Of a stretch of 64,000 nucleotides of DNA, positions 10,820 to 30,125 are shown one piece after another (position 1 is the first letter of the stretch; every line of letters begins with the position of its first letter). Location of the stretch: positions 6,844,001 through 6,908,000 of the forward strand of contig NZ_CP029193.1 of assembly GCF_008642355.1 (NCBI RefSeq), given 5' to 3'. Under the pieces are notes generated by a model. The model ran no database searches. It saw only the letters and a program-made list of their open reading frames with translations, and had not been told where the DNA came from. Source of the stretch: Streptomyces venezuelae. GTDB lineage: Bacteria > Actinomycetota > Actinomycetes > Streptomycetales > Streptomycetaceae. A program made the translations under genes and the position numbers.

Positions 10820-11931
10820 CCGGACGGCCGACGACCGTCCGGCGCGCGCCGGGCAAACTCTTCGTCGCCGGGGAGTACGCGGTCGTGGAGCCGGGCAACC
10901 CGGCCATCCTCATCGCCGTCGACCGATACGTCACCGTCACCGTGTCCGACCCCGGCGGCCCCGGTGTCGTCCTCTCCTCCGACCTCGCCCCGCACCCGGC
11001 GCACTGCCGCTGGCGGGACGGACGGCTCGGCGGGACGGAGCCGCGGGACGAGCAACTGCTCCACGAGAGCTTCACCCACGTCGCCGCGGCCATCGAGACC
11101 GTCGGCCGACTGCTCGCCGAACGCGGCCTGCCCGCACCCGCGCTCGACGTGTCGGTCAGCAGCGAACTGCACGACAACGGCATCAAGTTCGGGTTCGGGT
11201 CCAGCGGCGCGGTCGTCGTGGCGACCGTCGCCGCCCTGGCGGCCCACTGCGGCCTCCACCTGACGCGCGACGCCCGCTACCGCCTCGCGATGCTCGCCAC
11301 CGCGGGCCTCGAACCCAGAGCCTCCGGCGGCGACCTCGCCGCGGGCACCTGGGGCGGCTGGATCACCTACCGGGCCCCCGACCGGGCAGCCGTCCTCGAC
11401 CTGGCCGGCCGGGCGGGCGTCGAAGAGGCGCTGCGCGTGCCCTGGCCCGGCCACGAGGTACGCGCGCTGCCGCGGCCCGCGGGCCTCGCACTGGAAGTCG
11501 GCTGGACCGGGACACCGGCTTCCACCTCGTCCCTCGTCTCCGGCCTCGACCGGCGGACATGGCGGGGCAGCGCATCGCACCAGAAGTTCGTGGAGACCAG
11601 CAACGACTTCGTGACGGCCGCCGTCGACGCCCTGGAGGGCGGCGACGGCGAGGGCCTGCTGCGGCAGATCCGGCGCGCCCGGCACGAGCTGGCCCGCCTC
11701 GACGACGAGGTCGGGCTCGGGATCTTCACGCCACGGCTGACCGCGCTGTGCGAGGCAGCCGAAGCCGTCGGCGGCGCCGCCAAGCCCTCCGGGGCGGGCG
11801 GCGGCGACTGCGGCATCGCGCTGCTCGACGCCGAAGCGGCACAGGACATCGCCAACGTACGGAACCGGTGGACCACGGCGGGCGTGCGGCCCTTGCCGAT
11901 CCGTCCCGCCATGGAAGGGAACGCAGAATGA
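10816..11931 (+). CDS. mvaK2: Phosphomevalonate kinase (371 aa)
   Basis: Phosphorylates 5-phosphomevalonate to the diphosphate. It is a GHMP kinase with RAPGKLFVAGEYAVVEPGNPA at the N-terminus, GFGSSGAVVVATVAAL as the ATP loop and AKPSGAGGGDCGIAL near the C-terminus, the usual pattern of bacterial PMKs. GTG 10816 overlaps the upstream stop (GTGA), and its stop overlaps the next ATG (ATGA). The gene order kinase-decarboxylase-kinase-isomerase matches the Streptomyces mevalonate clusters linked to terpenoid hybrids. Confidence 0.93.
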   Translation: MTGRPTTVRRAPGKLFVAGEYAVVEPGNPAILIAVDRYVTVTVSDPGGPGVVLSSDLAPHPAHCRWRDGRLGGTEPRDEQLLHESFTHVAAAIETVGRLLAERGLPAPALDVSVSSELHDNGIKFGFGSSGAVVVATVAALAAHCGLHLTRDARYRLAMLATAGLEPRASGGDLAAGTWGGWITYRAPDRAAVLDLAGRAGVEEALRVPWPGHEVRALPRPAGLALEVGWTGTPASTSSLVSGLDRRTWRGSASHQKFVETSNDFVTAAVDALEGGDGEGLLRQIRRARHELARLDDEVGLGIFTPRLTALCEAAEAVGGAAKPSGAGGGDCGIALLDAEAAQDIANVRNRWTTAGVRPLPIRPAMEGNAE

Positions 11932-13019
11932 TCTCTCAACGCAAGGACGACCACGTCCGGCTCGCTGTCGAGCACCAGCGCCAGCACAGCGGACACAACC
12001 AGTTCGACGAGGTGTCGTTCGTCCACCACGCGCTGGCCGGCATCGACCGGCCGGACGTGTCCCTGGCCACGACCTTCGCCGGCATCTCCTGGCCGGTGCC
12101 CCTCTACATCAACGCGATGACCGGCGGCAGCGTCAGCACCGGCATCATCAACCGTGACCTGGCCATCGCGGCCCGCGAGACCGGCGTCGCCGTCGCCTCC
12201 GGGTCCATGAGCGCGTACTTCAAGGACCCGTCCTGCGCCGACACGTTCAGCGTGCTCCGCAAGGAGAACCCCGACGGGTTCGTGCTCGCCAACGTCAACG
12301 CGACGGCCTCGGTCGACAAGGTGCAGCGCGCCATCGACCTCGTACAGGCGAACGCCCTGCAGATCCACATCAACACCGCGCAGGAAACACCGATGCCCGA
12401 GGGCGACCGGTCGTTCTCCTCCTGGGTCCCGCAGATCGAGAAGATCGCGGCGGCCGTCGAGGTCCCCGTCATCGTCAAGGAGGTCGGCAACGGCCTCAGC
12501 CGGGAGACCGTCCTGCTCATCGAGAGCCTCGGCGTGCAGATCGCCGACCTCGGCGGCCGCGGCGGCACGGACTTCGCCCGCATCGAGAACGGCCGGCGCG
12601 AACTCGGCGAGTACGCGTTCATGCACGGCTGGGGACAGTCCACCGCGGCCTGCCTCCTCGACACCCAGGACGTCGGCATCCCCGTCCTCGCCTCCGGCGG
12701 CGTGCGCAACGCCCTCGACGTCGCCCGCGCGCTGGCGCTCGGCGCGTCCGGCGTCGGCGCCTCCGGTGGATTCCTGCGCACCCTGAAGGACGAGGGCGTC
12801 TCCGCGCTGATCGCGCAGATCTCGACGTGGCTCGACCAGCTCGCCGCCCTGCAGACCATGCTCGGCGCGCGCACCCCCGCCGACCTGACGCGCTGCGACC
12901 TGCTCATCCGCGGTGAACTCCGTGACTTCTGCGCCGACCGAGGCATCGACACGGGACAGTTCGCGCAGCGCTCCCGCTCCGTCGAGGCCGCCCACCAGCT
13001 GACGGGGAGCACCCGATGA
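11928..13019 (+). CDS. fni: Isopentenyl-diphosphate delta-isomerase type II (363 aa)
   Basis: FMN- and NADPH-dependent isomerisation of IPP to DMAPP, the prenyl donor for the cluster's aromatic prenyltransferase. Family marks are RKDDHVRLA at the start, PLYINAMTGGS, the catalytic segment HINTAQE (His, Asn, Gln, Glu), KEVGNG, and ADLGGRGGTDFARIE for FMN. The length is normal. Start and stop are both overlapped (ATGA) by neighbours, so it is an internal gene of the operon. Confidence 0.95.
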   Translation: MISQRKDDHVRLAVEHQRQHSGHNQFDEVSFVHHALAGIDRPDVSLATTFAGISWPVPLYINAMTGGSVSTGIINRDLAIAARETGVAVASGSMSAYFKDPSCADTFSVLRKENPDGFVLANVNATASVDKVQRAIDLVQANALQIHINTAQETPMPEGDRSFSSWVPQIEKIAAAVEVPVIVKEVGNGLSRETVLLIESLGVQIADLGGRGGTDFARIENGRRELGEYAFMHGWGQSTAACLLDTQDVGIPVLASGGVRNALDVARALALGASGVGASGGFLRTLKDEGVSALIAQISTWLDQLAALQTMLGARTPADLTRCDLLIRGELRDFCADRGIDTGQFAQRSRSVEAAHQLTGSTR

Positions 13020-14077
13020 CCGAGACCCACGCGATCGCCGGCGTCCCGATGCGGTGGGTCGGCCCGATCCGCATCTCCGGGAACGTCGCCACCACCGAGA
13101 CCCACGTCCCCCTCGCCACCTACGAGACGCCGCTGTGGCCCTCCGTGGGCCGCGGCGCCAAGGTGTCCAGGCTCGTCCAGGAAGGCATCGTCGCCACGCT
13201 CGTCGACGAGCGGATGACCCGCTCGGTGCTCGTGGAGGCGACGGACGCGCAGACCGCCTACGTCGCCGCGCGGGCCATCGACGCGCGCATCGACGAGCTG
13301 CGCGAGGTGGTGCGCGGCTGCAGCAGGTTCGCCCAGCTGATCAACATCCGGCACGAGATCAACGCCAACCTGCTCTTCATCCGCTTCGAGTTCACCACCG
13401 GCGACGCCTCGGGCCACAACATGGCGACGCTCGCGTCCGACGCCCTCCTGAAGCACCTCCTGGAGACCATCCCCGGCATCTCCTACGGGTCGATCTCCGG
13501 CAACTACTGCACGGACAAGAAGGCCACCGCGATCAACGGCATCCTCGGCCGCGGCAAGAACGTGGTCACGGAACTCCTGATCCCGCGTGACATCGTCACC
13601 GACGTCCTGCACACGACGGCCGCCAAGGTCGTCCAGCTGAACATCCGCAAGAACATGCTCGGCACCCTGCTCGCCGGCGGCATCCGCTCGGCGAACGCCC
13701 ACTACGCCAACATGCTCCTCGGCTTCTACCTGGCCACCGGCCAGGACGCGGCCAACATCGTCGAGGGCTCGCAGGGCGTCACCATGGCCGAGGACCGCGA
13801 CGGCGACCTGTACTTCGCCTGCACCCTGCCGAACCTGATCGTCGGCACGGTCGGCAACGGCAAGGGCCTCGAATTCGTGGAGACCAACCTCGCCCGGCTC
13901 GGCTGCCGGGCCGACCGCGAGCCCGGCGAGAACGCCCGCCGTCTCGCGGTGATCGGGGCGGCGACGGTCCTGTGCGGTGAGCTCTCACTCCTCGCCGCGC
14001 AGACGAACCCCGGCGAACTGATGCGTGCACACGTCCAGTTGGAGCGCGGCAACAAGACGGAAAAGGTCGGTGTATAG
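13016..14077 (+). CDS. hmgR: HMG-CoA reductase (353 aa)
   Basis: Reduces HMG-CoA to mevalonate with NADPH. The catalytic residues of the class I-like enzyme are recognisable: Glu in YETPLWPSVGRGAK, Lys in DKKATAINGILGRGKN, Asp in TTGDASGHNM, and His in LMRAHVQLERGNK near the C-terminus. It lacks any membrane domain and is soluble, as in other Streptomyces clusters. ATG 13016 overlaps the isomerase stop. HMG-CoA synthase follows after 3 nt. Confidence 0.95.
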   Translation: MTETHAIAGVPMRWVGPIRISGNVATTETHVPLATYETPLWPSVGRGAKVSRLVQEGIVATLVDERMTRSVLVEATDAQTAYVAARAIDARIDELREVVRGCSRFAQLINIRHEINANLLFIRFEFTTGDASGHNMATLASDALLKHLLETIPGISYGSISGNYCTDKKATAINGILGRGKNVVTELLIPRDIVTDVLHTTAAKVVQLNIRKNMLGTLLAGGIRSANAHYANMLLGFYLATGQDAANIVEGSQGVTMAEDRDGDLYFACTLPNLIVGTVGNGKGLEFVETNLARLGCRADREPGENARRLAVIGAATVLCGELSLLAAQTNPGELMRAHVQLERGNKTEKVGV

Positions 14078-14080
14078 GGC

Positions 14081-15256
14081 ATGGCCAGTGACTCAGGCAT
14101 AGGAATCCACGATCTGTCGTTCGCGACGACCGAGTTCGTGCTGCCGCACACGGCGCTCGCCGAGTACAACGGCACGGAGATCGGCAAGTACCACATCGGC
14201 ATCGGCCAGGAGTCGATGAGCGTGCCGGCGGCCGACGAGGACATCGTCACGCTGGGCGCCGCCGCGGCGGCACCGATCATCGAGCGGCACGGCAGCGAGC
14301 GCATCCGCACGGTCGTCTTCGCCACCGAGTCGTCCATCGACCAGGCCAAGTCCGGCGGTGTGTACGTCCATTCGCTGCTCGGGCTGCCGTCGGCGGCACG
14401 CGTCGTCGAGCTGAAACAGGCCTGCTACGGCGCTACCGCCGGGCTCCAGTTCGCGCTGGGCCTGGTGGCCAGGGACCCCTCGCAGCAGGTCCTCGTGATC
14501 GCCAGCGACGTGTCCAAGTACGAACTGGACAGCCCCGGCGAGGCCACGCAGGGCGCGGCGGCCGTCGCGATGCTGGTCGGCGCCGACCCGCAGCTCATCA
14601 GGTTCGACGGCCCTTCCGGACTGTTCACCGCCGACGTCATGGACTTCTGGCGGCCCAACTACCGGGACGCCGCGCTCGTCGACGGGCAGGAGTCGATCTC
14701 CGCCTACCTCCAGGCCGTCGAGGGCTGCTGGAAGGACTACGCGGAGCAGGGCGGCCACTCCCTCGACGAGTTCGCCGCGTTCTGCTACCACCAGCCCTTC
14801 ACCAAGATGGCGTACAAGGCCCACCGCCACCTGCTCGAGTACTGCGGCCACGACAGCGACAAGGACGCCGTCGAGCAGGCGCTGGGGCAGACCACGGCGT
14901 ACAACCGGGTCATCGGCAACAGCTACACGGCGTCCGTGTACCTCGGCCTCGCCGCGCTGCTCGACCAGGCCGACGACCTGACCGGCCGCTCCATCGGCTT
15001 CCTCAGCTACGGCTCGGGCAGCGTCGCGGAGTTCTTCGCGGGCCAGGTCGTCCCCGGCTACCGCGACCGGCTGCGCACCGCCGAGCACCGGAAGGCCGTC
15101 GAGCGCCGCACGGTCCTCGACTACGCGGGCTACCGGGAGCTGCACGAGCGGAAGTTCCCCACCGACGGCGGGGACTACCCGACGCCGGTGCAGAGCGGCG
15201 GGCAGTTCCGTCTCGCAGCCCTGCGCGGCCACAAGCGCATCTACGAACGGCGGTAG
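14081..15256 (+). CDS. mvaS: HMG-CoA synthase (391 aa)
   Basis: Condenses acetyl-CoA with acetoacetyl-CoA to HMG-CoA. The thiolase-fold catalytic triad is visible: Glu in VVFATESSIDQAKS, Cys in VELKQACYGATAGLQ, and His in CYHQPFTKMAYKAH. It starts 4 nt after the reductase stop, with a modest ribosome binding site inside the reductase end. Its substrate acetoacetyl-CoA is supplied by the next gene. Confidence 0.95.
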   Translation: MASDSGIGIHDLSFATTEFVLPHTALAEYNGTEIGKYHIGIGQESMSVPAADEDIVTLGAAAAAPIIERHGSERIRTVVFATESSIDQAKSGGVYVHSLLGLPSAARVVELKQACYGATAGLQFALGLVARDPSQQVLVIASDVSKYELDSPGEATQGAAAVAMLVGADPQLIRFDGPSGLFTADVMDFWRPNYRDAALVDGQESISAYLQAVEGCWKDYAEQGGHSLDEFAAFCYHQPFTKMAYKAHRHLLEYCGHDSDKDAVEQALGQTTAYNRVIGNSYTASVYLGLAALLDQADDLTGRSIGFLSYGSGSVAEFFAGQVVPGYRDRLRTAEHRKAVERRTVLDYAGYRELHERKFPTDGGDYPTPVQSGGQFRLAALRGHKRIYERR

Positions 15257-15260
15257 GCGC

Positions 15261-16256
15261 ATGACGGACATGGCGACCGACATCGCCGTTCTCGGCACCG
15301 GCCACTACGTGCCGGACCGCATCGTCTCCAATGACGAGGTCGGGGCGCCGGCCGGGGTCGAGGGCGAGTGGATCGTCCGCAAGACCGCGATCCGGGAGCG
15401 GCGGTGGGCCGCGCCGGACGAGGCCACATCGGACCTGGCGGTCAAGGCGGCGCGGGCCGCACTGGAGTCGGCGGGCATCACCGCGGCCCAGCTGTCCGTG
15501 ATCGTGGTGGCCACGTCCACGCCGGACCGGCCGCAGCCGCCGACCGCGGTGTACGTGCAGCAGAAGCTGGGCGCGCTCGGCGCGGCCTCCTTCGACGTCA
15601 ACGCGGTCTGCTCGGGCAGCATGTACGCCCTCTCGGTGGTCGAGGGCATGCTGGCGCGGCGGGGCGGCCACGCCCTGGTGATCGGCGCGGACGTGTACTC
15701 GCGGATCCTCGATCCCGCCGACCGCAAGACGGTCGTGCTGTTCGGCGACGGCGCCGGGGCCATGGTCCTCGGCGCGGGAACCGGCTCCACCGGGGCCCGG
15801 GTGCGGCATGTCGCGCTGCACACCTTCGGCGAGCTCGCGGACCTGATCCGGGTGCCCGCCGGAGGCAGCAGGCAACCCCCCGACCAGGCCGTCCTCGACG
15901 CGGGACTCCAGTACTTCGCGATGGACGGACGCGAAGTGCGCCGCTTCGTGCTCGAGCAACTGCCGCAGCTCACCAAGCAGTTCCTGCACGAGGCGGGAGT
16001 GGTGCCCGACGACATCGCGCACTTCGTCCCGCACCAGGCCAACGGTGTCATGCTCGACACGGTGATCGGGGACCTGTCCCTGTCCCGTGCCACCACGCAC
16101 CTGACGCTGGAGCAGTACGGCAACACCGGCGCGGCCTCCATCCCGATCACGCTGGACACGGCGGCCCGCGAGGGCGCCTTCAGTCCCGGCGACCTGATCC
16201 TGATGGCGGGCTTCGGCGGCGGCATGGCCGCGGGACTCGCCCTCCTCGAATGGTGA
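15261..16256 (+). CDS. nphT7: Acetoacetyl-CoA synthase NphT7, KAS III-like (331 aa)
   Basis: Makes acetoacetyl-CoA by decarboxylative condensation of malonyl-CoA with acetyl-CoA, which drives the mevalonate pathway irreversibly. The KAS III triad is present: Cys in NAVCSGSMYAL, His in FVPHQANGVMLD and Asn in QYGNTGAASIPI. Long stretches such as PADRKTVVLFGDGAGAMVL and DLIRVPAGGSRQP match NphT7 of the naphterpin/CL190 cluster as I remember it. ATG 15261 is used; ATG 15270 is an alternative. It is the last gene of the mevalonate operon, followed by a 13-bp hairpin. Confidence 0.93.
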   Translation: MTDMATDIAVLGTGHYVPDRIVSNDEVGAPAGVEGEWIVRKTAIRERRWAAPDEATSDLAVKAARAALESAGITAAQLSVIVVATSTPDRPQPPTAVYVQQKLGALGAASFDVNAVCSGSMYALSVVEGMLARRGGHALVIGADVYSRILDPADRKTVVLFGDGAGAMVLGAGTGSTGARVRHVALHTFGELADLIRVPAGGSRQPPDQAVLDAGLQYFAMDGREVRRFVLEQLPQLTKQFLHEAGVVPDDIAHFVPHQANGVMLDTVIGDLSLSRATTHLTLEQYGNTGAASIPITLDTAAREGAFSPGDLILMAGFGGGMAAGLALLEW

Positions 16257-16295
16257 CCCGCACCTAGGGACTGCCCAGGCGGTCACCCGTGAACG

Positions 16296-16335
16296 GGCCG
16301 GGGAGCTCCACTTCCCCCGAGCGAGCTCCCCGGCC
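16296..16335 (+). terminator. Terminator after the mevalonate operon
   Basis: GGCCGGGGAGCTC (16296-16308) and GAGCTCCCCGGCC (16323-16335) form a perfect 13-bp stem with a 14-nt loop, without a T-run. It separates the mevalonate operon from aroA. Confidence 0.75.
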
Positions 16336-16360
16336 TGGCAGTACCCCGAGCTTTCACCCC

Positions 16361-16394
16361 GAACCTTTCGTCACCGCGAACCTTTCGTCACCGC
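16361..16394 (+). repeat. 17-bp tandem repeat upstream of aroA
   Basis: GAACCTTTCGTCACCGC occurs twice head to tail (16361-16377 and 16378-16394), identical, ending 6 nt before the aroA Shine-Dalgarno (GGAGG, 16401-16405). It may be a duplicated regulator site or a recent slippage event in the leader. Confidence 0.75.
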
Positions 16395-16411
16395 GCCGCA
16401 GGAGGCACCGC

Positions 16412-17680
16412 GTGATCACGGAGAAGGAGCCCGGCACCGGCCTGGCCGCCCGAGTACCGGGATCCAAGAGTCTGACCAACCGGCTGCTGCTCCTCGCCGC
16501 CGCGGCCGACGGCACGAGCACCGTCCGCGCCCCGCTCGTGAGCGAGGACACGGTCGCCTTCCGCCAGGCACTCGACGTGTGCGGCATCCCGGTGCAGGCA
16601 GGGCCGGGGGACACGTTCTGGAAAGTGACCGGCACGGGACGCGGCCCCACCGGCTCCGCCCGCCCCTGGTGCGCCGACGCCGGAACCGCGGCCCGCTTCC
16701 TGCCCCCGTTCGCCGCCACCGGACACGGCACCTTCCTCTTCGACGGCTCGTCGCAACTGCGTGCCCGCCCGCAGCGCCCCCTCATCGAAGCGCTCCGCGC
16801 CCTGGGCGCCGACCTCGAACCGGGCCCCGGCAACGGACTCCCTCTGCTGCTCCGCGCCCGCGGCGTCGAGGGCGGCGACCTCTCCGTGGACTCCTCCCTG
16901 AGCAGCCAGTACCTCAGCGGCCTCCTGATGGCGGCCCCCCTCATGCGCCGCGGCCTGCGGATCCGCACCGGAGACCTGGTCAGCCGCCCCTACATCGACA
17001 TGACCCTCGCCCTGATGCGGCGCTTCGGGGCCGACGTCGAGGAGAGCGCCGACGGCACCATCCGTGTCGCGCCACGGCCCTACGACGCCACCGACATCGT
17101 GGTCGAACCCGACGCGTCCTCCGCCTCGTACGTCTTCGCCGCGGCGGCCGTCACCGGAGGCACCGTCACCGTGCCCGGCCTCGGCACCGAAAGTCTCCAG
17201 GGCGACCTGCGCTTCGTCGACGTCCTGCGGCGGACCGGCGCCGACGTCCGCGTCGGCCCGACCGCCACCACCGTCACCGGCAACGGTCCGTTGCGGGGCG
17301 GCTTCACCGTCGACATGGGCGAGATCTCCGACACCTTCATGACCCTCGCGGCCATCGCGCCGCTCGCTGACGCCCCCATCACGATCACCGGCGTCGCCCA
17401 CGCCCGGCTGAAGGAGTCCGACCGCGTCGCCGCGATGGCGGAGAACCTCCGCGCCTGCGGCATCGAGACCGCCGAGGGCCCCGACCGGCTCACCATCCAC
17501 CCCGGGACGCCGCGCCCCGCCCGTATCGCCTGTCACCGCGACCACCGGATCGCGATGTCGTTCTCGGTCCTCGGGCTCGCCGTACCGGGCACGGTCTCGC
17601 TGGACGACCCGGACTGCGTGGCGAAGACGTTCCCCGAGTTCCACGACGAGATACGCCGCCTGTTCCAGGACAGTCCCTGA
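16412..17680 (+). CDS. aroA: EPSP synthase (3-phosphoshikimate 1-carboxyvinyltransferase) (422 aa)
   Basis: Sixth step of the shikimate pathway: joins PEP and shikimate-3-phosphate. Family marks are [60 protein letters not shown] and [19 protein letters not shown] 16412 follows GGAGG by 6 nt; an upstream extension to 16289 is not supported. Primary-metabolism aroA is normally elsewhere in the chromosome, so this copy is probably cluster-dedicated, feeding chorismate towards the phenazine core. It is followed after 40 nt by aroC in the same direction. Confidence 0.92.
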
Positions 17681-17720
17681 GTACCGATCCGCACCACGTC
17701 AGCACCACGGAGGAGCACCG

Positions 17721-18905
17721 TTGAGCAGGTTGCGTTGGCTGACCGCGGGGGAGTCGCACGGACCCGCGCTTGTCGCGACGTTGGAGGGTCTTCCCGCCGG
17801 CGTTCCGGTGACGACGGAGATGGTGGCGGATCATCTGGCGCGGCGGCGTCTTGGGTATGGCCGGGGTGCGCGGATGAAGTTCGAGCGTGATGAGGTCACG
17901 TTCTTGGGCGGGGTCCGGCACGGTTTGAGCATGGGTTCGCCGATCGCGGTGATGGTGGGCAATACGGAGTGGCCCAAGTGGGAGCAGGTGATGTCGGCCG
18001 ATCCGGTGGATCCGGAAGTGCTGGCCGATCTCGCCCGTAATGCCCCGCTGACCCGGCCGCGTCCGGGGCACGCGGATCTGGCGGGCATGCAGAAGTACGG
18101 CTTCGACGAGGCGCGGCCGGTGCTTGAGCGGGCGTCGGCGCGGGAGACCGCGGCGCGGGTGGCGCTGGGTGCGGTGGCGCGGTCGTTTTTGAAGGAGACG
18201 GCCGGGATCGAGATTGTCTCGCATGTGACGGAGCTGGCGTCGGCCAAGGCCCCCTACGGCGTGTACCCGACCCCCGCGGATGTCGAGAAGCTGGACGCGG
18301 ATCCGGTGCGGTGCCTGGATGCGGACGCGTCGAAGGCGATGGTCGCGGAGATCGATCAGGCTCACAAGGACGGCGACACCCTGGGCGGTGTCGTGGAGGT
18401 CCTCGCGTACGGGGTGCCGGTCGGGCTCGGCTCGCACGTGCACTGGGACCGTCGCCTGGACGCACGTCTGGCGGCGGCGCTCATGGGCATTCAGGCGATC
18501 AAGGGCGTGGAGGTTGGTGACGGCTTCGATCTGGCCCGCGTGCCGGGTTCGAAGGCGCATGACGAGATCGTCACGACCGAGGACGGCATCCGGCGTACCT
18601 CGGGCCGCTCCGGTGGTACGGAGGGTGGTCTGTCCACGGGTGAGCTGTTGCGGGTGCGGGCGGCGATGAAGCCGATCGCGACGGTGCCGCGGGCGTTGGC
18701 GACGATCGATGTGGCGACGGGTGAGGCGGCCAAGGCGCATCACCAGCGCTCGGATGTGTGTGCTGTGCCGGCGGCGGGGATCGTCGCGGAGGCGATGGTG
18801 GCGTTGGTGCTCGCGGATGCGGTCGCGGAGAAGTTCGGCGGGGACAGTGTTCCCGAGACGCGCCGCAACGTGCGGTCCTACCTCGACCACCTGCAGATCC
18901 GCTGA
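17721..18905 (+). CDS. aroC: Chorismate synthase (394 aa)
   Basis: Converts EPSP to chorismate with reduced FMN. The conserved segments [81 protein letters not shown] and the Arg-rich [16 protein letters not shown] are all intact. TTG 17721 follows ggaggag. The codon use is unlike its neighbours: many GGT, GAT, CGT, CTT and TTG codons in the first ~500 bases and again after ~18490, while the middle is ordinary. This suggests a separate origin or conversion with a housekeeping aroC. Together with aroA it forms a chorismate-supply pair for the cluster. Confidence 0.94.
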
Positions 18906-18951
18906 ACCGGGTGGCCAACAGCCCTACTTGAGCCTGCCTTCGACGTACGAA

Positions 18952-18982
18952 TGGAGGCGACCTCCGCAAGAGGCCGCCTCCA
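18952..18982. terminator. Bidirectional hairpin between convergent aroC and the cysteine-rich gene
   Basis: TGGAGGCG-a-CCTC and GAGG-c-CGCCTCCA pair across a 5-nt loop (18952-18982) with one mismatch. It lies in the 176-nt gap between two convergent genes, so it can serve both. Confidence 0.65.
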
Positions 18983-19081
18983 CCAGGGGGCTCCGTCGCG
19001 CTCCACCCTGCTCTCTCCCGCTGAGCAGGCCGTGCGTCCCTGCGAAGCCGTTCCTACGTCAATACCCGCGCCGGACGGCGG

Positions 19082-19720
19082 TCACGCGGCCTCCTTGCGC
19101 TGCCGGTCCATGAGGTGCCGCAGGACGAGCCACTCGCGTACTTCCCACGCGTGCCCCGCGGAACACCGGATGCTGCCGTTCCCGGCCGCCGCACCGGGAC
19201 CGTGGGGTGAGGCGTCGATCGTGCCCGTGCACCTGTCCACCACGCACTGCCGGGTGAGTGGGGTGCGGTCGCCCGATTCGGGGTCGATGACGCGGAGCAG
19301 CTCGGTCCGCAGGTCCCGGATCTCGGCCGCGAAATCCTCGGCCGGTGGCTGGGTCGTGAGCCACTCCAGATGGTGCAGCAGAAAACACGTCAGGTGCGGT
19401 ACGGAACGGCCCGGGACCGTGACCCCGAGTTCATCCGCCACGTAACTCGCCCACGATTCCAGAATGGCGACGATATTGCCCCGTGCGTCGAGCGCGGAAA
19501 CGTTCAAGTGGTCCCGCCTGCGGCTACCGGACACCTTGGTGGGATTACGCCGCCGGGACGTGGCCATGATGTGGTGCAGGCCTTCTTGATGGAGGCCGGG
19601 AAGCGCGCGCAGATCGCGCTCCAGCTTTCCGACGCAGGCGTCGCAGAGCAACGAGTGCCGCACGTCGGTCGTGTCACGTATCTCCGCTCTGTGGTTTTCC
19701 GGGCATGAATGGGTCTCCAT
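19082..19720 (-). CDS. Small cysteine-rich (zinc-ribbon-like) protein of unknown function (212 aa)
   Basis: No enzyme family is recognised. The N-terminus has Cys6 and a CxxC pair in LLCDACVGKLERDLRALPGLH (Cys26, Cys29). The C-terminal ~60 residues have QCVVDRCTGTI and IRCSAGHAWEVREWLVLRHL, a Cys/His arrangement suggesting a second zinc site followed by a helix-turn-helix-like end. From memory it resembles proteins named OvmZ in the oviedomycin cluster and similar proteins in other Streptomyces clusters and phages; I could not check this. ATG 19720 has a good AAGGAG 10 nt upstream. It is the last gene of the phenazine - strand operon, 51 nt after the sheath-like gene, which suggests the two function together. 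Confidence 0.75.
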   Translation of the reverse strand: METHSCPENHRAEIRDTTDVRHSLLCDACVGKLERDLRALPGLHQEGLHHIMATSRRRNPTKVSGSRRRDHLNVSALDARGNIVAILESWASYVADELGVTVPGRSVPHLTCFLLHHLEWLTTQPPAEDFAAEIRDLRTELLRVIDPESGDRTPLTRQCVVDRCTGTIDASPHGPGAAAGNGSIRCSAGHAWEVREWLVLRHLMDRQRKEAA

Positions 19721-19771
19721 GGGTTTTTGTCTCCTTGTAGTGGCTGGACGGCCCCTACGGGTCCGCCCCGG

Positions 19772-20983
19772 TCAAGTGGTTCTGTTGCGTGTGTCGTGCT
19801 GGATCCGGAACGTGACGAACTCGGCGGGCCGCAGGGCGGCGAGGCCGACGTCGAGGTTCACCCGGCCGTTCGCCACGTCCTCGGGGGTGTTGTTGGTGTC
19901 GTCGCAGACGACCTCGAAGGCCTCGGTCGGGGACGCGCCGGGCAGCGCGCCCTGCCGCCAGAGGCCCTTGAGGAAAGTCGTCGTCGACTGGCTCACGAGT
20001 GCGCGCAGTTGAGCCGAGTTGGTGTCGAACGCGGCCCAACGGGTGCCCTGTTCGAGGGAGGCGCGGGTGTAGTTCACCAGACGGCGCACGCCGAGTTCCG
20101 CCCAGTCGGCGTCGGTGGACAGCGTCCGCGCGCTGAGCACCCGCACGCCCTTCCCCTGGACGAACCGCAGGCAGTTGACCCCGTGTCCGGTGACCGACTC
20201 CCGCTCGTGCTCGGACAGGTCGCGCTCCTGCTTGACCACGCCCACCAGCGCGCCCACCGGAGTCGCGTGGACGCCCTGCTCCGTGTCGCCGCGGCAGCAC
20301 ATACCCGACACATGACCCGAAGGCGGCACCAGACGTTCGTGCCCGCCGACCTCGGTCACCGTGATCCACGGATAGTGCACGGCGACGAACCGGGCGTCGG
20401 GTTCCGCGAGCCCGAACGGCCGGTGGCGCACGTCGACGGGGTCGAGGCCCTGCCGGGTGTGCAGCAGCGCGACCCGGTGCCCCACGCGGCGGCAGTGCCC
20501 GGCGATCTCCCGGGCGACGCGGTCCGCGTCGTCCGCCACCCGCCACAGGTCCGGAGCGACCACGAGGCTGACCTCCGGCAGCCGCTCCAGCCTGGCCAGG
20601 GCGGACCGGTAGGCCGAGATCCGGTCCTGCTCCCTCTCTTCGCCGCCTGTCGCGGCTTCCCCCGTCCCCAGGACCCATGCTCCGCCGCCTCCGTTGCGGA
20701 AGTGGCCGAGCACGGCGTCGTGGATGTGGGACGGCGGTTCCCCCTCGTTCCTGCGGGGCGAGAACGCCTCGATGAACTCCAGCGGATGCCGTACGAAGGC
20801 GGGCTTGGCCGGCAGGCCGGGGGCGTCCCCGATGAAGGCGGCCACCGAGGTGTGCACGCCGTGGATGTAGGGCGCGCCGTGGCCCGCTCCGCCTGCGACG
20901 TCCGCCTCCCGGAGCCGGACTCCGGGCCCGAGGGGGCCGGTGGTGGTTGCTGTGCGCGGTTGATTCGGCTGCTGTTGTGGCAT
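19772..20983 (-). CDS. Orphan phage/contractile tail sheath-like protein (403 aa)
   Basis: Contractile injection systems and myophages use sheath proteins that polymerise around a tube. Here the N-terminal domain has the PGVRLREAD...GVHTSVAAFIGDAPGLP pattern, followed by FRNGGGGAWVLG. The last ~100 residues (FLKGLWRQGALPGASPTEAF, then VCDDTNNTPEDVANGRVNLD, ending RPAEFVTFRI) match the conserved sheath C-terminal domain very well. At 403 residues it is shorter than typical sheaths (~500). No tube, baseplate, ATPase, spike or LysM gene is nearby, so it cannot form a complete injection system. It lies co-directionally between a phenazine-type methyltransferase and a cysteine-rich gene. The function in this cluster is unknown; a scaffold role is conceivable. 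ATG 20983 follows GAGGAG. Confidence 0.85.
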   Translation of the reverse strand: MPQQQPNQPRTATTTGPLGPGVRLREADVAGGAGHGAPYIHGVHTSVAAFIGDAPGLPAKPAFVRHPLEFIEAFSPRRNEGEPPSHIHDAVLGHFRNGGGGAWVLGTGEAATGGEEREQDRISAYRSALARLERLPEVSLVVAPDLWRVADDADRVAREIAGHCRRVGHRVALLHTRQGLDPVDVRHRPFGLAEPDARFVAVHYPWITVTEVGGHERLVPPSGHVSGMCCRGDTEQGVHATPVGALVGVVKQERDLSEHERESVTGHGVNCLRFVQGKGVRVLSARTLSTDADWAELGVRRLVNYTRASLEQGTRWAAFDTNSAQLRALVSQSTTTFLKGLWRQGALPGASPTEAFEVVCDDTNNTPEDVANGRVNLDVGLAALRPAEFVTFRIQHDTRNRTT

Positions 20984-22124: not shown

Positions 22125-22171
22125 TGACCTGTCTTTCCTCGTACGGGTATGGGGGGGCGGTGTTGCCGGGT

Positions 22172-22660
22172 TCAGGAGGGGATCCAGTCGCGTTGGATGT
22201 GTGGGGTGTCGATGTTCAGGGCCCGCATGTGTTCGATGGGGTTGGTGTATTCGCGGCTGGCGGCGATGCGTCCGTTCTCCAGGGTGAAGCCGTGGATGAA
22301 GTGGTTGCGGTAGTGGCCCTCGGGATAGCCGGGGAAGCGGATGGTGCCCTCGCCCTCGCACTCCACCCAGATGACGGCCGGGTCCTGGGTCTCGTAGATC
22401 TGCACGTCGGACCACTGCCAGTCGGGCAGCACCTGCAGGGAGAGTTCGTTGTGCTTTTGCAGCCTGGCGTGGCCCTGGACGGTGATGGGGCGGCCGATGT
22501 CGGTGTTGAACAGGGCGGCGGTGCCGTCCTCGGTGTAGAGGGTGTAGCGGCGCAGCCGGGCCTCGCGCCCGGTCTCCATGTACTGCTCCACGGCCCGCCG
22601 GTTGCGGGCGCGCAGCTCGAGGTGGTTGGTGAACACCGGGGCGGCGGCGGGGGCGGTCAT
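22172..22660 (-). CDS. phzB: Phenazine biosynthesis protein PhzA/PhzB (162 aa)
   Basis: Small ketosteroid isomerase/SnoaL-like (NTF2 fold) protein that accelerates condensation of two molecules of the PhzF product to form the phenazine tricycle. The phz pattern is clear: HLELRARNRRAVEQYM near the start, RLRRYTLYTEDGTAALFNTD, FPDW-like VLPDWQWSDVQIYETQDP and VECEGEGTIRFPGYPEGHY with NHFIHGFTLENG. Streptomyces phenazine clusters carry a single phzB rather than the phzA-phzB pair of pseudomonads. ATG 22660 is used. It follows phzG by 32 nt on the same strand. Confidence 0.95.
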   Translation of the reverse strand: MTAPAAAPVFTNHLELRARNRRAVEQYMETGREARLRRYTLYTEDGTAALFNTDIGRPITVQGHARLQKHNELSLQVLPDWQWSDVQIYETQDPAVIWVECEGEGTIRFPGYPEGHYRNHFIHGFTLENGRIAASREYTNPIEHMRALNIDTPHIQRDWIPS

Positions 22661-22692
22661 CGCATCTCCGAAGTACGGGTGGGGGCAGGGGG

Positions 22693-23343
22693 TCAGGGCT
22701 GCAGGCGGGTGGTGTCCCAGCCGCTGTCGGTGCGGTCGTAGCGCAGCCGTTCGTGCAGCCGGTCGGTGCCGTTCGCCCAGAACTCCACGGCGTCCGGCTC
22801 CAGGACAAAGGCCACGAACGTGTCGGGGCAGGGCAGCGCCCGCGGCGGCTCGCCCAGCTGCAGCGCCCTGGCCCGGATCTCTTCAAGGTGGTCCAGGTCG
22901 CGCAGCGGCTCGCTCTGCAGCGACACGCTCGACATGGGGTGGGTGAACACCGCGCGCGCCGCCCACAGTTCCTCCGCGGCGGCGCGCGGCAACTGGCGCA
23001 CCGGCCCGGCCACGGTGATCTGCTGGCTGGTCTCGCGCCAGTACAGCACCCCCGACGCCCAGGGATTGGCGGCCAGTTCGCGGCCCTTCTGGCTGCCGGC
23101 GTGGGTGATGAACACGATCCCGCGGTCGGTGACCTGGTTGACGGCCAGGATGCGCGAGGAGGTGCGCCCCCGCGCATCGGCGGTGGCCAGGGCCAGGGCG
23201 CGCGGTTCGCGTACGCCCTGCTCGGTGGCCGTCTTCAGCCAGGCGGACAGCAGGCCCAGCGGCTCCGCGGGCGGCGTACGGAACTCGGGGAAGGCCACCT
23301 CGAGGGAGCCCGTCAGCGTCTCGGAACGCCGTACATCAGACAT
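22693..23343 (-). CDS. phzG: PhzG, FMN-dependent phenazine-forming oxidase (216 aa)
   Basis: A pyridoxamine-5'-phosphate-oxidase-fold flavoprotein that oxidises the unstable hexahydro/tetrahydro-phenazine intermediates towards phenazine carboxylic acid. Visible marks are PRALALATADARGRTSSRILAV, FITHAGSQKGRELAANPWAS, the WRETSQQITVAG strand and the C-terminal EFWANGTDRLHERLRYDR, which is the PNPOx signature region. Its ATG at 23343 overlaps the end of phzF by 8 nt, implying coupling. A housekeeping PdxH is less likely given the neighbours. Confidence 0.92.
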   Translation of the reverse strand: MSDVRRSETLTGSLEVAFPEFRTPPAEPLGLLSAWLKTATEQGVREPRALALATADARGRTSSRILAVNQVTDRGIVFITHAGSQKGRELAANPWASGVLYWRETSQQITVAGPVRQLPRAAAEELWAARAVFTHPMSSVSLQSEPLRDLDHLEEIRARALQLGEPPRALPCPDTFVAFVLEPDAVEFWANGTDRLHERLRYDRTDSGWDTTRLQP

Positions 23344-24172
23344 GGATCACTCCTTCGATCGTGACGACGCCGTGGCCCGAGACCTCGACGGAGTCGACGC
23401 GGTCGCCCTCGCCCTGGACCAGCGCGTTCATGGGGGAGGGGCGGCCGATCTCGATGCCCTGGGTGATCTCGATGCGCTGCCCGTACGAGGCGAGGCCGTG
23501 GCGGGCCGCGTGAATGGCGATGGGTCCCGCGACGGAGCCGGTGGCGGCGTCCTCCACGACTCCGTAGGCGGGCGAGAACATGCGGTTGCGCCAGGTCGTC
23601 CCGGAGCCGGCGATGCAGTTCGTCGCCATGTCGGGGAAGCTCGCGAGGGCGCGGTGGTCGGGGTCGACCTTCGACAGGGCCTCGAAGCTCTCGAAGCCGA
23701 CCAGGACGTGCCGCGGGCCGTTGCGGTAGATCTCCACCGGCAGCGTCGACTCGCGGATGCCCAGGGCTTCGAGGAGTTCGTCGGCGCGGTCGAAGGGCTC
23801 CCAGACGGGCACCGGCTGGCGCATGCTCGTCGAGACGACCTTCCCGCCGACGCGCTGCAGCTCGAAGGGGATCTCACCCATGGCGGTCTCGATCCGCAGC
23901 CCGTCCGCGTCGGTGCGCTGCCCCAGCGCGATGGCGGTGCCCAGCAACGGGTGTCCGGCGAAGGGGAGTTCGTTGACCGGCGTGAAGATCCGCACGTGGA
24001 AGTCCCCGCCCTGCTTGGGCTTGAGGACGAACGTGGTCTCCGAGAGGTTCATCTCCCGGGCGATGCGTTGCATCTGCTCGGCGCTCAGGTCGTCGGCGTC
24101 GAAGAACACCGCGACCGGGTTGCCGGTGAGAGGCTCTCGGGCGAACGCGTCGACCACTACGTAGTTGTGCAT
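23336..24172 (-). CDS. phzF: PhzF, trans-2,3-dihydro-3-hydroxyanthranilate isomerase (278 aa)
   Basis: Isomerises DHHA to the aminoketone that dimerises to the phenazine scaffold. It has the diaminopimelate-epimerase-like fold: HNYVVVDAFAREPLTGNPVAVFF at the start, the catalytic Glu in MNLSETTFVLKP, FTPVNELPFAGHPLLGTA and the Asp in VEDAATGSVAGPIA. ATG 24172 (MHNYVVVDAF) matches the family start; the open frame to 24454 is just upstream leader. It heads the - strand operon phzF-phzG-phzB-methyltransferase-sheath-Cys protein. PhzD and PhzE, which make its substrate, are not in the window. Confidence 0.95.
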   Translation of the reverse strand: MHNYVVVDAFAREPLTGNPVAVFFDADDLSAEQMQRIAREMNLSETTFVLKPKQGGDFHVRIFTPVNELPFAGHPLLGTAIALGQRTDADGLRIETAMGEIPFELQRVGGKVVSTSMRQPVPVWEPFDRADELLEALGIRESTLPVEIYRNGPRHVLVGFESFEALSKVDPDHRALASFPDMATNCIAGSGTTWRNRMFSPAYGVVEDAATGSVAGPIAIHAARHGLASYGQRIEITQGIEIGRPSPMNALVQGEGDRVDSVEVSGHGVVTIEGVIHV

Positions 24173-24606
24173 CAGCTCTCCACTGTCGAGGTGCCGGGCC
24201 GGCGCTCGGGGGAGGACGCCGGCCCGGCGGTTCATGGGGTGGTGCGGAACGATGCCTACGATGCGCGATCGATCTTTGATCCAAACTGAATCCCGCTGGA
24301 ATGGCGCGGAGCGCGTTCTGCGCACAGTGCTCCGGTCGGTCTTCCGGCGGGGTGCGCTCGCAGATTCAGCGATGAAGTCACGCTCAGACAAGAATGTATC
24401 GAGAGCCCCCGTTGGCCTGGGGTCGATCCTGCCTGACTGAACAAATCGAAGCAATAGTGTTTTGACGTTTTACTTCTGAACACAAGACGAAATGCGCCCG
24501 CGTGACGGCATGCTTGAACCGACCCTCGGTGCGCATTCAAGAATTACGAGGTCAGACCTCAAGGAAATTAAGCAACAAATATCCGGCGATCCGCTGTGGA
24601 GCGGCA
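24173..24606. other. AT-richer leader/promoter region of the phzF operon
   Basis: This gene-free stretch is visibly poorer in GC than its surroundings (for example 24420-24480 and 24560-24600) and has no convincing coding pattern. It holds a 13-bp palindrome (24548-24560). It most likely contains the promoter(s) for the - strand phenazine operon; I cannot fix a single -35/-10 pair with confidence. Confidence 0.5.
24548..24560. promoter_or_regulatory. Palindromic operator candidate upstream of phzF
   Basis: GAGGTC-a-GACCTC is a perfect palindrome with a single central base. It lies in the AT-rich leader 376 nt upstream of phzF and suits a dimeric repressor. No cluster-specific regulator gene is evident next to it. 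Confidence 0.4.
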
Positions 24607-26528: not shown

Positions 26529-27455
26529 TCAAGGTTGACGTCCGCGTCCGCGGCGCTTGTCGGGCAGCCGGTGCGTCATGAAGGGCCTGCTGGTCGTGAA
26601 CTCCCGGAACTTCACCGCGGCGTCGGACAGGTAGGTGTCGCGGCTCCACACCAGCGTGAGCACCCGGTGGCAGTCCGGCGCGTTCAAGTGCACCCAGGCC
26701 ACGGGGACCTGGGAATCCGTGCCTGCCTGGCGGGAGATGGCCGGGATCAGGCCGATGCCGAGGCCCGCGCTGATCATGTCCTGGCTCGCGCCCGGCTCGT
26801 CGCCCTCGCAGGAGATCATCGGAGTGAGGCCCTCGGACGCGAAGAGGCGGTCCAGGAGCGTGCGTTGCCACTGGCCGATGCGGGTCGTCACGAACGGCTC
26901 GGTGGCGATCTCACGGATCGTCACGCTCTCCTGGCCGTCGAGCCAGTGACCGCGCGGGACCGCGAGCAGCACCTCCTCGCGGGCCAGCTCGATCATCTCC
27001 AGGTTCGTGCCGGTCAGCGGCTGCGACGCCACGCAGAAGTCGACCTCCCTGGCGCGCAGCTGGCGGTCCATCTCCTCCGCGTTCGACTGGAAGAGCCGCA
27101 CGTCGGCGCGGGGGTACGCGGCCCGGAAGCTGCCGAGGAGATGCGTGATCGTCAGGAGGGTCTCGGAGGCGACGCTGACCCGGCCGAACGCCGTGTCCCG
27201 GGCGTCGCTCAGGACCCTGCGGGCGTCGTCGAGCTCGCTCAGGGCGCGGTCCACGTGGTGCAGGAACACCACGCCGTACTGATTCAGCCGGATGCGGCGG
27301 CCCTGCCGGTCGAAGAGGGGGGTGCCGAGCTCGGCCTCCAGGCGCGCGATGGTGCGGCTCAGGGAGGGCTGGGCGACGTGCAGCTCCTCCGCGGCACGGC
27401 TGATGTGCTCGTAACGGGCGACGGCCTGGAAGTAGCGCAACTGCAGAAGATCCAT
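26529..27455 (-). CDS. LysR-family transcriptional regulator (308 aa)
   Basis: The N-terminal winged helix-turn-helix (LLQLRYFQAVARYEHISRAAEELHVAQPSLSRTIARLEAELGTPLFDRQGRRIRL) is textbook LysR, followed by a type 2 periplasmic-binding-like effector domain (residues ~90-295). It is divergent from cydA, with an ATGCC-N6-GGCAT repeat 15 nt upstream of its own start, the usual autoregulation layout. It therefore probably controls the cytochrome bd genes, although it also abuts the ferredoxin end of the phenazine cluster. The ligand is unknown. Confidence 0.9.
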   Translation of the reverse strand: MDLLQLRYFQAVARYEHISRAAEELHVAQPSLSRTIARLEAELGTPLFDRQGRRIRLNQYGVVFLHHVDRALSELDDARRVLSDARDTAFGRVSVASETLLTITHLLGSFRAAYPRADVRLFQSNAEEMDRQLRAREVDFCVASQPLTGTNLEMIELAREEVLLAVPRGHWLDGQESVTIREIATEPFVTTRIGQWQRTLLDRLFASEGLTPMISCEGDEPGASQDMISAGLGIGLIPAISRQAGTDSQVPVAWVHLNAPDCHRVLTLVWSRDTYLSDAAVKFREFTTSRPFMTHRLPDKRRGRGRQP

Positions 27456-27688: not shown

Positions 27689-28990
27689 ATGAGCGCTGCG
27701 GATCTGGCCCGACTCCAGTTCGCGGCCACGACCGGCATCCACTGGCTGTTCGTGATCCTCACCATGGGACTCGTCCCCATCGTCGCGATCATGCACACCC
27801 GGGCCGCGTTCACCCGTGATCCCGCCACAAGAGCAGTCCGGGAGCGCATGACCCGCTTCTGGGGTCAGCTCTACGTCATCAACTACGCGGTCGGCATCGT
27901 CACCGGCCTCGTCATGGAGTTCCAGTTCGGGCTCAGCTGGAGCGGCCTCAGCAAGTTCGCGGGCAACGTCTTCGGCGCCCCGCTGGCCCTCGAAACCCTC
28001 ATCGCCTTCTTCGCCGAGTCCACCTTCCTCGGCATGTGGATCTTCGGCTGGGGCCGGCTGCGCAGGGGCGTGCACGTCACGCTCATCTGGCTGGTCGCCC
28101 TCACCGCGTACGCCTCCGGGTACTGGATCCTGATCGCCAACGGCTTCATGCAGCACCCGGTCGGCTACGAAGTGCGCGACGGCGCCGCCTACCTGACCGA
28201 CTTCGGGGCGCTGCTCACCAACTCCAGCGCCCTGATGGCGCTCTTCCACCTCTCGCTCGGCGCCCTGACGACGGGTGGCTGTTTCGTCGCCGGCGTCAGC
28301 GCCTGGCACTACCTGCGCGGCACCAAGGAGACCGAGCTCTTCCGGCCCTCCCTGAAGCTCGGGCTCTGGGTGTCGACGGTCGCCTCGTTCTTCGTCGTCG
28401 TCGTCGGCGAGATGCAGCGCCCCATCATCGAGCGCACGCAGCCCATGAAGGACGCGGTCCTGGAGAACAGCGGCGTCGCCGAAGTGCAGGCGCAGCTCGT
28501 CAAGGAGCACGGGCCGGGCAACTACGTGCCCTGGCAGGACACCATGCGGATCTCGATGGACGTGATGACGCTCATCGGCAACACGGTGTCCACCATCACC
28601 TTCATCGCCCTCATCCTGCTCTGGAAGAACCGGCTGATGCGCTGGCGCTGGGCCTCGTGGATCCTCGTCGCGACCATCCCCTTCCCGTTCATCGCCTCCG
28701 TGGGCGGCTGGATCGTCCGCGAGGTCGGACGCCAACCGTGGATCGTGTACGGCGAGTTGACCGTCGAGGACGCGCTCTCCCACGTAGGGAAGACCTCGCT
28801 GCTGCTGTCCTGCATCCTCTTCATCGCCATCTTCGTCGCCCTCGCGGTGACGAACTGGACGCTGATCACCAAGTTCGCGCTCCGCGGCCCCGACGCCACC
28901 CAGCTCGGCGTCAGCGAGCCGCTCCCGGACGACCTCCCCGAGGGCCCGGCGGGCAGCGCCGACGAGAAGCAGCCGGTACCCGCTCTCTGA
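27689..28990 (+). CDS. cydA: Cytochrome bd oxidase subunit I (433 aa)
   Basis: Membrane quinol oxidase subunit carrying haems b558, b595 and d, used at low oxygen. His18 in GIHWLFVILTMGLVP is the axial haem ligand position. Glu near residue 110 lies in FFAESTFLGMWIFGW, and the quinol-loop signature GWIVREVGRQPWIVYGELT is intact. About nine transmembrane helices are apparent, and the Q-loop is of the short type. The C-terminus is an acidic Pro/Glu tail. ATG 27689 follows AGGAAGG. It is the first gene of cydABDC. Confidence 0.95.
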   Translation: MSAADLARLQFAATTGIHWLFVILTMGLVPIVAIMHTRAAFTRDPATRAVRERMTRFWGQLYVINYAVGIVTGLVMEFQFGLSWSGLSKFAGNVFGAPLALETLIAFFAESTFLGMWIFGWGRLRRGVHVTLIWLVALTAYASGYWILIANGFMQHPVGYEVRDGAAYLTDFGALLTNSSALMALFHLSLGALTTGGCFVAGVSAWHYLRGTKETELFRPSLKLGLWVSTVASFFVVVVGEMQRPIIERTQPMKDAVLENSGVAEVQAQLVKEHGPGNYVPWQDTMRISMDVMTLIGNTVSTITFIALILLWKNRLMRWRWASWILVATIPFPFIASVGGWIVREVGRQPWIVYGELTVEDALSHVGKTSLLLSCILFIAIFVALAVTNWTLITKFALRGPDATQLGVSEPLPDDLPEGPAGSADEKQPVPAL

Positions 28991-29071
28991 GCCGGGCGGC
29001 CCCCGGAACCCCCACAGAAGATCTCCTCCGCCACGGAAGATCTCCCCTGCTGTAACGGAAAGTTGAGCGAG

Positions 29072-30094
29072 ATGAGTCTGGAGACCGTCTGGCTGGCCCT
29101 CCTCGGCCTGCTACTCGCCGGGTACTTTGTACTCGGCGGCTACGACTACGGCGCACAGATGCTGCACCCCTTCCTCGGCCGAGACGGTCAGGAGGAGAAG
29201 CGCACCAGCGGAAACGCCGCCCTCGACGCCATCGCGCCGTTCTTCCTGGGCAACGAGGTCTGGCTGGTCGCCTTCGCCGGAGTCATGTTCGGTGCCTTCC
29301 CGCACCTCGAAGGCACCCTCCTGTCCGGCATGTACCCGCTGATCGTCGCGATCCTCGCCGGCCTGGTCCTCGGCAACGCCGCGGTCCAACTGCGCCGCCG
29401 CTCCCGCAGCGCCCGCGGCCGCCGGGCCTGGGACGTGCTGATCGTGATCGGCGGCGCCGTCCCCGCCGTGTGCTGGGGACTCGTCGTGGGGCTGCTGCTC
29501 CACGGGGTGCCGCGCCGCGCCGACGGCAGCTTCCACATCGGGCTCGGCGAGGTGTTCTCGCCGTTCGTGCTCGTCTGCGGCGTCACCACCGTGCTGCTCT
29601 TCGCGGCACACGGTGCGACCTTCGTCGCCCTGCGCTCCGAGCCCGAACTCGCCGACCGGGCACGGAAAATGGCCGCGAGCCTGCTCGTCGGCGTGGCCGC
29701 CGTCGGCGCCCTCGCCCTGCTCCTCACGGTCTTCGGCGCGGGCGCCTCCATGACGAACCGCACGACGTCGTGGATCATCGCCGCCCTGATCGTCGCCGCG
29801 CTCGGCGCCGCCTGGTGGCACCTCGGCCGCGGCAACAATGTCCTCGCGTTCGCCGCGACCTGCTGTGCCACCGCGCTGCCGGTGCTGCTCCTCGGGGCGG
29901 GCCACTACCCGTACCTCCTGATCACCGAGGCCGGCGCGGGCCTGGACATCGACCACGCCATCACGGACGACGCCACGCTGAAGATCCTCAGCGGCTTCGG
30001 GGTCCTGGTGATCCCGACGATCCTCGCCTACCAGTTCTGGAGCTGGTGGGCCTTCCGGGGGCGGACGGGACAGCGTCACCCCAGCTACTTCTGA
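29072..30094 (+). CDS. cydB: Cytochrome bd oxidase subunit II (340 aa)
   Basis: Partner membrane subunit of cytochrome bd oxidase. ETVWLALLGLLLAGYFVLGGYDYGAQML is the conserved first helix, although the usual DGFDLG-type segment reads GGYDYG. NAALDAIAPFFLGNEVWLVAFAGVMFGAFP is the conserved helix pair. About eight transmembrane helices follow. I chose ATG 29072 with GGAAAG at 29057-29062; a TTG at 29063 in frame is an alternative that would overlap the ribosome binding site. It lies 81 nt after cydA. Confidence 0.92.
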   Translation: MSLETVWLALLGLLLAGYFVLGGYDYGAQMLHPFLGRDGQEEKRTSGNAALDAIAPFFLGNEVWLVAFAGVMFGAFPHLEGTLLSGMYPLIVAILAGLVLGNAAVQLRRRSRSARGRRAWDVLIVIGGAVPAVCWGLVVGLLLHGVPRRADGSFHIGLGEVFSPFVLVCGVTTVLLFAAHGATFVALRSEPELADRARKMAASLLVGVAAVGALALLLTVFGAGASMTNRTTSWIIAALIVAALGAAWWHLGRGNNVLAFAATCCATALPVLLLGAGHYPYLLITEAGAGLDIDHAITDDATLKILSGFGVLVIPTILAYQFWSWWAFRGRTGQRHPSYF

Positions 30095-30125
30095 CCCCCC
30101 GGAAAGCGACGAGAGGTACCCCACG

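Follow-up and report, generated by a model that had tools for sequence, protein, structure and literature searches.

What does a contractile-sheath gene do inside a phenazine biosynthetic operon? Sheath proteins are the moving parts of syringes, namely phage tails, contractile injection systems (CIS) and type VI secretion systems. The question is raised by a 64,000-nucleotide stretch of the Streptomyces venezuelae chromosome (GCF_008642355.1, NZ_CP029193.1, positions 6,844,001 to 6,908,000; hereafter the window), in which a minus-strand gene at 19772..20983 encodes a short-form sheath protein of 403 residues. The next gene on that strand (19082..19720, 212 residues) appears to encode a transcriptional coactivator of the OvmZ/PpzV/Aur1O type. 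A first-pass annotation had described the sheath gene as an orphan, had placed it in a phenazine operon and had suggested an OvmZ-type neighbour, and each of these descriptions is borne out here. Specifically, the 403-residue protein matches both curated domains of the contractile tail-sheath family (PF04984 and PF17482) with a complete sheath core fold, phzB, phzG, phzF and a methyltransferase gene lie on its strand, and no tube, baseplate, spike or cap genes were found near it. The gene product is a sheath-fold protein, kin to the sheaths of Streptomyces CIS, that is encoded outside any injection-system locus.

We searched 5.8 billion proteins for relatives of this sheath (7992 candidates scored, best 120 of 425 hits listed). 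The search returned 26 relatives at 55-94% identity, followed by matches at 42% or less, and all 22 of the relatives that carry an organism name are from Streptomyces. A tree built from 55 sheaths unites the window protein with all 26 relatives in one clade (support 100/99) apart from 17 CIS sheaths; the branching among this clade, the CIS sheaths and other short orphan sheaths is an open fork. Among 392 genomes of the genus, a close copy is present only in the window genome and in G324, judged to be S. atriruber NRRL B-24165, and four other genomes that match at E <= 1e-66 reach just 41-45% identity. Among 249 genomes of the family the clade sheath occurs only in the window genome, the next best match being at 45%.

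Within the clade, the sheath gene frequently occurs together with a gene for an OvmZ-type coactivator and with phenazine genes, a co-occurrence that the first-pass annotation had put forward for checking. On contigs of at least 10 kb, 11 of the 18 clade sheaths share a contig with an OvmZ homologue and none of the 63 sheaths outside the clade does (Fisher p 2.6e-9), and 13 of the 18 share a contig with OvmZ or PhzF, again as compared with 0 of 63; here linkage means a matching contig size among protein hits, which is a proxy for the same contig and not for adjacency, and the counts are lower bounds because protein clusters at >90% identity show only their longest contig. The 18 and the 63 leave out rows without a contig size (P0011 in the clade, P0065 outside it), contigs below 10 kb and unlisted rows; the input consisted of all 120 of 120 OvmZ hits, 118 of them with a usable size (not P0134 and P0206), and the best 120 of 1822 PhzF hits. 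The sheath-linked rows of the OvmZ tree need two changes, indicating that they are not one exclusive group. Because sheath and OvmZ genes bear consecutive names in two strains (WT5.4/WT5.5, a pair that is not among the 18 as no contig is given, and GCM10020221_10990/_11000, which is one of the 11), and because the gene order in S. atriruber DNA agrees, the evidence points to direct sheath-OvmZ adjacency. We found no publication on the WT5 cluster. Sheath and OvmZ distances also correlate over 14 linked pairs (Mantel r 0.85, a value reached in none of 5000 shuffles), which at the level of sequence distances shows common inheritance of the two genes, not interaction.

Two sheath loci were read as DNA, those of the window and of S. 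atriruber (L033/L041), and these are close kin. Both have the order methyltransferase-sheath-OvmZ with sheath and ovmZ co-directional, separated by a gap of 51 bp in the window and 47 bp in S. atriruber, and the start and ribosome-binding site of the sheath gene are also kept. A scan revealed no terminator-like site between the window sheath and the ovmZ-type gene. Identities between the two DNAs are 90% for the methyltransferase, 84% for the sheath and 81% for OvmZ, and the corresponding dN/dS values for this one genome pair are 0.21, 0.26 and 0.27. Neither DNA copy of the sheath has a frame break, and judged on this single genome pair the gene is apparently subject to purifying selection. 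These values bear on the explanation that the sheath is a passenger, acquired by a single capture and passed on along with the cluster while serving no selected function. Such a history would fit the C-terminal truncation of three relatives (P0024-P0026) and the highly variable N-terminus, and it is opposed by the dN/dS of 0.26 with unbroken frames, by the kept start, ribosome-binding site and order, and by the size of a clade with 26 database representatives at 55-94% identity. We consider a passenger improbable.

The 212-residue partner is assigned to the OvmZ/PpzV/Aur1O/TylU group through database matches that carry the family name, P0194 ('OvmZ protein') and P0237 ('putative ovmZ homologue'). 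Members of the OvmZ group are coactivators of biosynthetic clusters (PMC3326630, PMC8910723, PMC11264864), and the window gene likewise lies inside such a cluster. Deletion of ppzV leaves prenylated phenazines almost gone (PMC3326630), and OvmZ acts interdependently with the small helix-turn-helix protein OvmW to activate oviedomycin and other clusters (PMC8910723, PMC11264864). Because C159, C164, C186 and H190 of the partner are invariant across 38 aligned sequences, these residues suggest a putative metal site. The partner also matches the viral PHROG families phrog_1467 (E 3.1e-14) and phrog_908 (E 6.9e-12), both of unknown function, as well as phrog_1568, 'DNA binding protein', at E 2.5e-5; the OvmZ coactivator family may have distant phage kin. 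These viral matches, together with a fold that is common to phage tail sheaths, are what could be expected if the sheath gene were the remnant of a prophage or phage-tail bacteriocin that came to lie in the cluster by accident. We regard that origin as very improbable indeed, since the best 80 of 89 viral-contig loci never exceed 37% identity, no better than the ~38-41% shown by Streptomyces CIS sheaths, no other tail gene is near, and tblastn of the partner against 50,697 phage records gave zero matches at E <= 1e-5.

Next to OvmZ one expects OvmW. It lies directly 3' of OvmZ at 14 of 15 sheath-less loci, comprising L066-L079 (one of which sits on another contig of S. atriruber) and a second OvmZ locus of the window genome; the exception is L072, which is counted here as lacking OvmW and is labelled OvmW-bearing in the OvmZ tree. 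At the sheath loci read as DNA, OvmW was found at neither of the two, and its expected place in the window, 3' of the ovmZ-type gene (18906..19081), holds no OvmW-like frame. In both sheath genomes the sole strong OvmW match genome-wide is at the second, sheath-less OvmZ locus (in the window genome, an OvmW-like gene at G000:C1:117010-117186). Because the two sheath loci are close kin, the lack of OvmW where the sheath is present is suggestive only.

Among these sheath-less loci, OvmZ genes adjoin mevalonate gene sets in ten genomes (L067-L076), nine of them with OvmW (the exception again being L072), and phenazine core genes were not found in the 15-19 kb read there. OvmZ may be a general marker of prenylated products. 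A third arrangement is seen at L072:9025-9767, where an OvmZ-type gene has mevalonate genes as neighbours and no OvmW or sheath gene next to it.

Could the clade sheath still contract? In the S. coelicolor CIS, lengthening the linker by five residues results in a non-contractile particle, with >95% of particles extended, and this CIS-N5 mutant still assembles with its tube (PMC10066040). As compared with CIS sheaths, the window sheath is missing an outer domain of ~130 residues, and its N-terminal linker, six residues longer, departs from the CIS-type arm and linker. Exactly 25 residues precede the core motif in 15 of 16 rows labelled CIS (P0038 has 38), as compared with a range of 12-51 in the clade, where the window sheath has 44 and none of the 27 members has 25. 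When classed by eye (a script pattern found the arm in 10 of 27, and P0015, P0017 and P0018 were added by eye), the arm or linker differs from the CIS form in 23 of the 27 members: the linker is 6-13 residues longer in nine, the window sheath included, and a recognisable arm is missing in 14, two of which (P0012, P0014) keep a remnant. The CIS linker length is retained by the other four (P0015-P0018). Because the arm or linker is altered in 23 of 27 and five extra residues abolish CIS contraction, most clade members, the window sheath among them, are predicted to be non-contractile.

Orphan short sheaths also occur outside the clade, and the first two described here are placed as if within operons. 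One that is ~45% identical to the window sheath (L043:2214-10379, on G203:C11) lies on the same strand as, and just 3' of, genes for a one-module nonribosomal peptide synthetase (NRPS) and a flavin monooxygenase. Another, on the Streptomyces plasmid NZ_CP109497.1 (L050:11547-15981), follows genes for a YheO-like regulator, an aminotransferase, an ornithine cyclodeaminase and an ATP-binding protein, all on one strand. A third (G542, 45%) is flanked by genes read, without a Pfam scan, as transposases, and the family search returned no second sheath-family match in its genome. At L047:8979-12161 and L048:9534-12805, two different sheath genes flank a gene read as tube-like, again without a Pfam scan.

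The first-pass annotation had also proposed that the sheath polymerises as a metabolon scaffold, compartment or product-binding assembly. Formulated as an enzyme scaffold, this holds that sheath polymers, formed with no tube or baseplate, bring together enzymes of phenazine synthesis or prenylation, or else shield reactive intermediates. Recombinant T4 gp18 does form polysheaths by itself (PMC9230969), the window sheath has its core fold intact and is encoded inside an operon beside a methyltransferase gene, and the NRPS-linked orphan sheath described above also fits this idea. The canonical mesh, however, is not conserved in the clade, and because 23 of the 27 members have a lengthened subunit-linking arm or none (by eye) a canonical contractile polymer is less likely, which leaves room for an assembly of another kind. 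In addition, what recurs beside the sheath is a regulator, not an enzyme or structural protein, and three other phenazine loci with OvmZ carry no sheath. The structural proposal found no direct support, and we view an enzyme scaffold as unlikely, ranking it behind a regulatory role.

The window genome also contains an injection system of its own. The family search recovered two sheaths in this genome, the second of which is a CIS sheath of 532 residues at 6386010-6387608, in a locus with two tube-type proteins, a CIS_tube/LysM protein, hub/spike, gp25, baseplate J and a Pvc16-like protein. Of the proteins called around this CIS, none except the sheath matches anything in the window. The CIS locus has its own sheath, and therefore the orphan sheath fills no gap in it; the case that the first-pass annotation had named as fatal to its proposal, a CIS locus that needs the orphan copy, does not apply. 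A subtler connection would be with the sheath of the chromosomal CIS, which the orphan protein would join, cap or poison, coupling phenazine production to CIS-mediated cell death. The two sheaths are 38% identical over 283 residues, both of the two clade genomes hold a second, much stronger sheath-family match (in the window genome, the CIS), and S. coelicolor CIS mutants produce ~70% less actinorhodin (PMC10066040). However, sheath matches are common anyway, being present in 158 of 249 family genomes at E <= 1e-20, and two out of two says little. The best-scoring non-clade relatives also include the orphan short sheaths of G203 (45%) and G542 (45%), the latter from a genome with no further sheath-family match, and the clade itself is linked to OvmZ and PhzF. 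We judge a CIS modulator to be more unlikely still than a scaffold.

We favour a regulatory role with OvmZ, followed by an enzyme scaffold, a CIS modulator and a passenger, because the coactivator that recurs beside the sheath is without its usual partner and because the fold, typical of a protein that makes ordered contacts, has here lost features required for contraction. Our tentative proposal, possible but well short of probable, is that the sheath is a domesticated, non-contractile paralogue that functions as the cluster-specific partner of its OvmZ protein. In this model OvmZ would be held or presented by sheath-fold subunits, acting singly or in short rings or arcs, and OvmZ so presented would activate phenazine (prenylation) promoters, with the sheath taking the place of OvmW, the normal partner of OvmZ that is missing at the locus. 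The broader proposal, that a sheath was recruited as a regulatory subunit with OvmZ, in replacement of OvmW, to switch on an antibiotic cluster, and possibly so in a wider orphan short-sheath set of Streptomyces-family biosynthetic operons, is doubtful.

Several observations weigh against a regulatory role. Sheath-OvmZ binding, the oligomeric state and an effect on transcription are inferred, and the domain scan found no recognised DNA-binding domain in the window sheath. Five of the 18 long-contig clade sheaths are unlinked (P0007, P0008, P0016, P0017 and P0019), with the organism names of P0016 and P0017 turning up again among OvmZ and PhzF hits from different contigs; conversely, the sheath-type-group OvmZ proteins P0128 and P0133, both on long contigs, have no sheath on the contig among the matches listed. 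All three of the other phenazine loci read as DNA (L077-L079) have OvmZ and OvmW and no sheath, and the sheath-less locus L072 also lacks OvmW. The missing OvmW at two kindred loci may be one event, and the OvmZ-OvmW pair at the second locus of both genomes could supply OvmW in trans. Finally, the C-terminal part is missing in three of the 26 clade relatives (P0024-P0026), which may mean that the gene is dispensable in some strains or that these are sequencing errors.

By its gene content the cluster around the sheath is endophenazine-like. Upstream of the sheath on the minus strand lie a methyltransferase gene in the ppzM position (PF00891, 21099..22124), which adjoins the sheath in S. atriruber too, phzB (22172..22660), phzG (22693..23343) and phzF (23336..24235, with an alternative start possible at 24172, most listed relatives having 278-279 residues), followed by genes in the positions of ppzK (FAD-dependent oxidoreductase, 24657-25928), ppzL (ferredoxin, 25928-26251) and ppzY (LysR-type regulator, 26529..27455). 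On the plus strand are genes for cytochrome bd and two ABC transporters (27848..33784), an aromatic prenyltransferase in the ppzP position (PF11468, 7704..8612), and mevalonate pathway genes with a KAS-III-type enzyme in the ppzT position (8854..16256). The mevalonate set consists of two GHMP kinases, MVD, HMG-CoA reductase, HMG-CoA synthase and an FMN_dh-family protein read as type-2 IDI. Genes for EPSP synthase and chorismate synthase (precursor supply; 16289..18905, plus strand) converge on the ovmZ-type gene.

The phenazine core is divided between two loci, and the endophenazine-type combination of core, prenyltransferase and mevalonate genes is complete only when both are counted. The window has phzB, phzG and phzF, with phzA, phzC, phzD and phzE not found in it; these four are at G000:C1:100661-104942, close to the end of the chromosome, in the second OvmZ locus (G000:C1:99386-104942 onward), which has phzB, G, E, D, C and A and no phzF. 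The two loci are ~6.8 Mb apart on the assembled chromosome and, of the two, only the window has phzF. The phzG-phzB segment is duplicated, its two copies agreeing at 99.7% over 1188 bp (window 22169-23356; G000:C1:99383-100570, L082). Two OvmZ proteins are likewise found in each of NPDC046465, NPDC058284, NPDC058308 and NPDC093510, the first three of which also have a clade sheath. At the second locus, two genes read as flavodoxin-like without a Pfam scan (G000:C1:98691-99319 and 138575-139203; L082, L084) are in inverted orientation and 96% identical over 630 bp. In the window, a terminator-like stem-loop on the minus strand (24547-24561) separates phzF from the FAD reductase gene, at the expected place of phzA/C/D/E; ~2 such sites are expected by chance.

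If the regulatory reading holds, it would represent a non-mechanical, non-injection use of the sheath fold. A conserved sheath clade that travels with a coactivator in antibiotic clusters, away from any syringe genes, would give the fold a new role, and it bears on how OvmZ-type coactivators, in which no domain is recognised, act where their DNA-binding partner is absent. The system involves two genes in culturable Streptomyces, and phenazines are coloured. The sheath and OvmZ families are each known; the pairing and the non-injection sheath clade appear to be new. Among the open-licence PMC papers listed in our searches, none pointed to a sheath gene belonging to a biosynthetic cluster, and the word 'sheath' occurs 0 times in the main texts of PMC3326630, PMC8910723 and PMC11264864.

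As compared with known systems, the window sheath differs from the S. coelicolor Cis2 sheath (PDB 8bky, 8bl4, 9gts) in having 403 rather than 534-539 residues with no outer domain, in its linker that is longer by six residues, in belonging to a separate clade and in having no tube, baseplate or cap genes nearby. The closest relatives of the cluster are the ppz cluster of S. anulatus 9663, in which the ovmZ-like ppzV lies beside ppzM and whose ppzV position is occupied in the window by the 212-residue partner (PMC3326630), and the three loci L077-L079, which are probably from Kitasatospora because their OvmZ proteins group with K. purpeofusca rows in the OvmZ tree. The prenyltransferase, mevalonate genes, phzB/G/F, ppzK/L-like genes and an OvmZ-type gene are common to all of these, whereas the sheath is in the window only, going by the L077-L079 DNA and by the main text of the ppz paper. 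Lastly, in contrast to the OvmZ/OvmW, TylU, Aur1O and PpzV systems, the window locus lacks OvmW and has the sheath gene on the other side of OvmZ.
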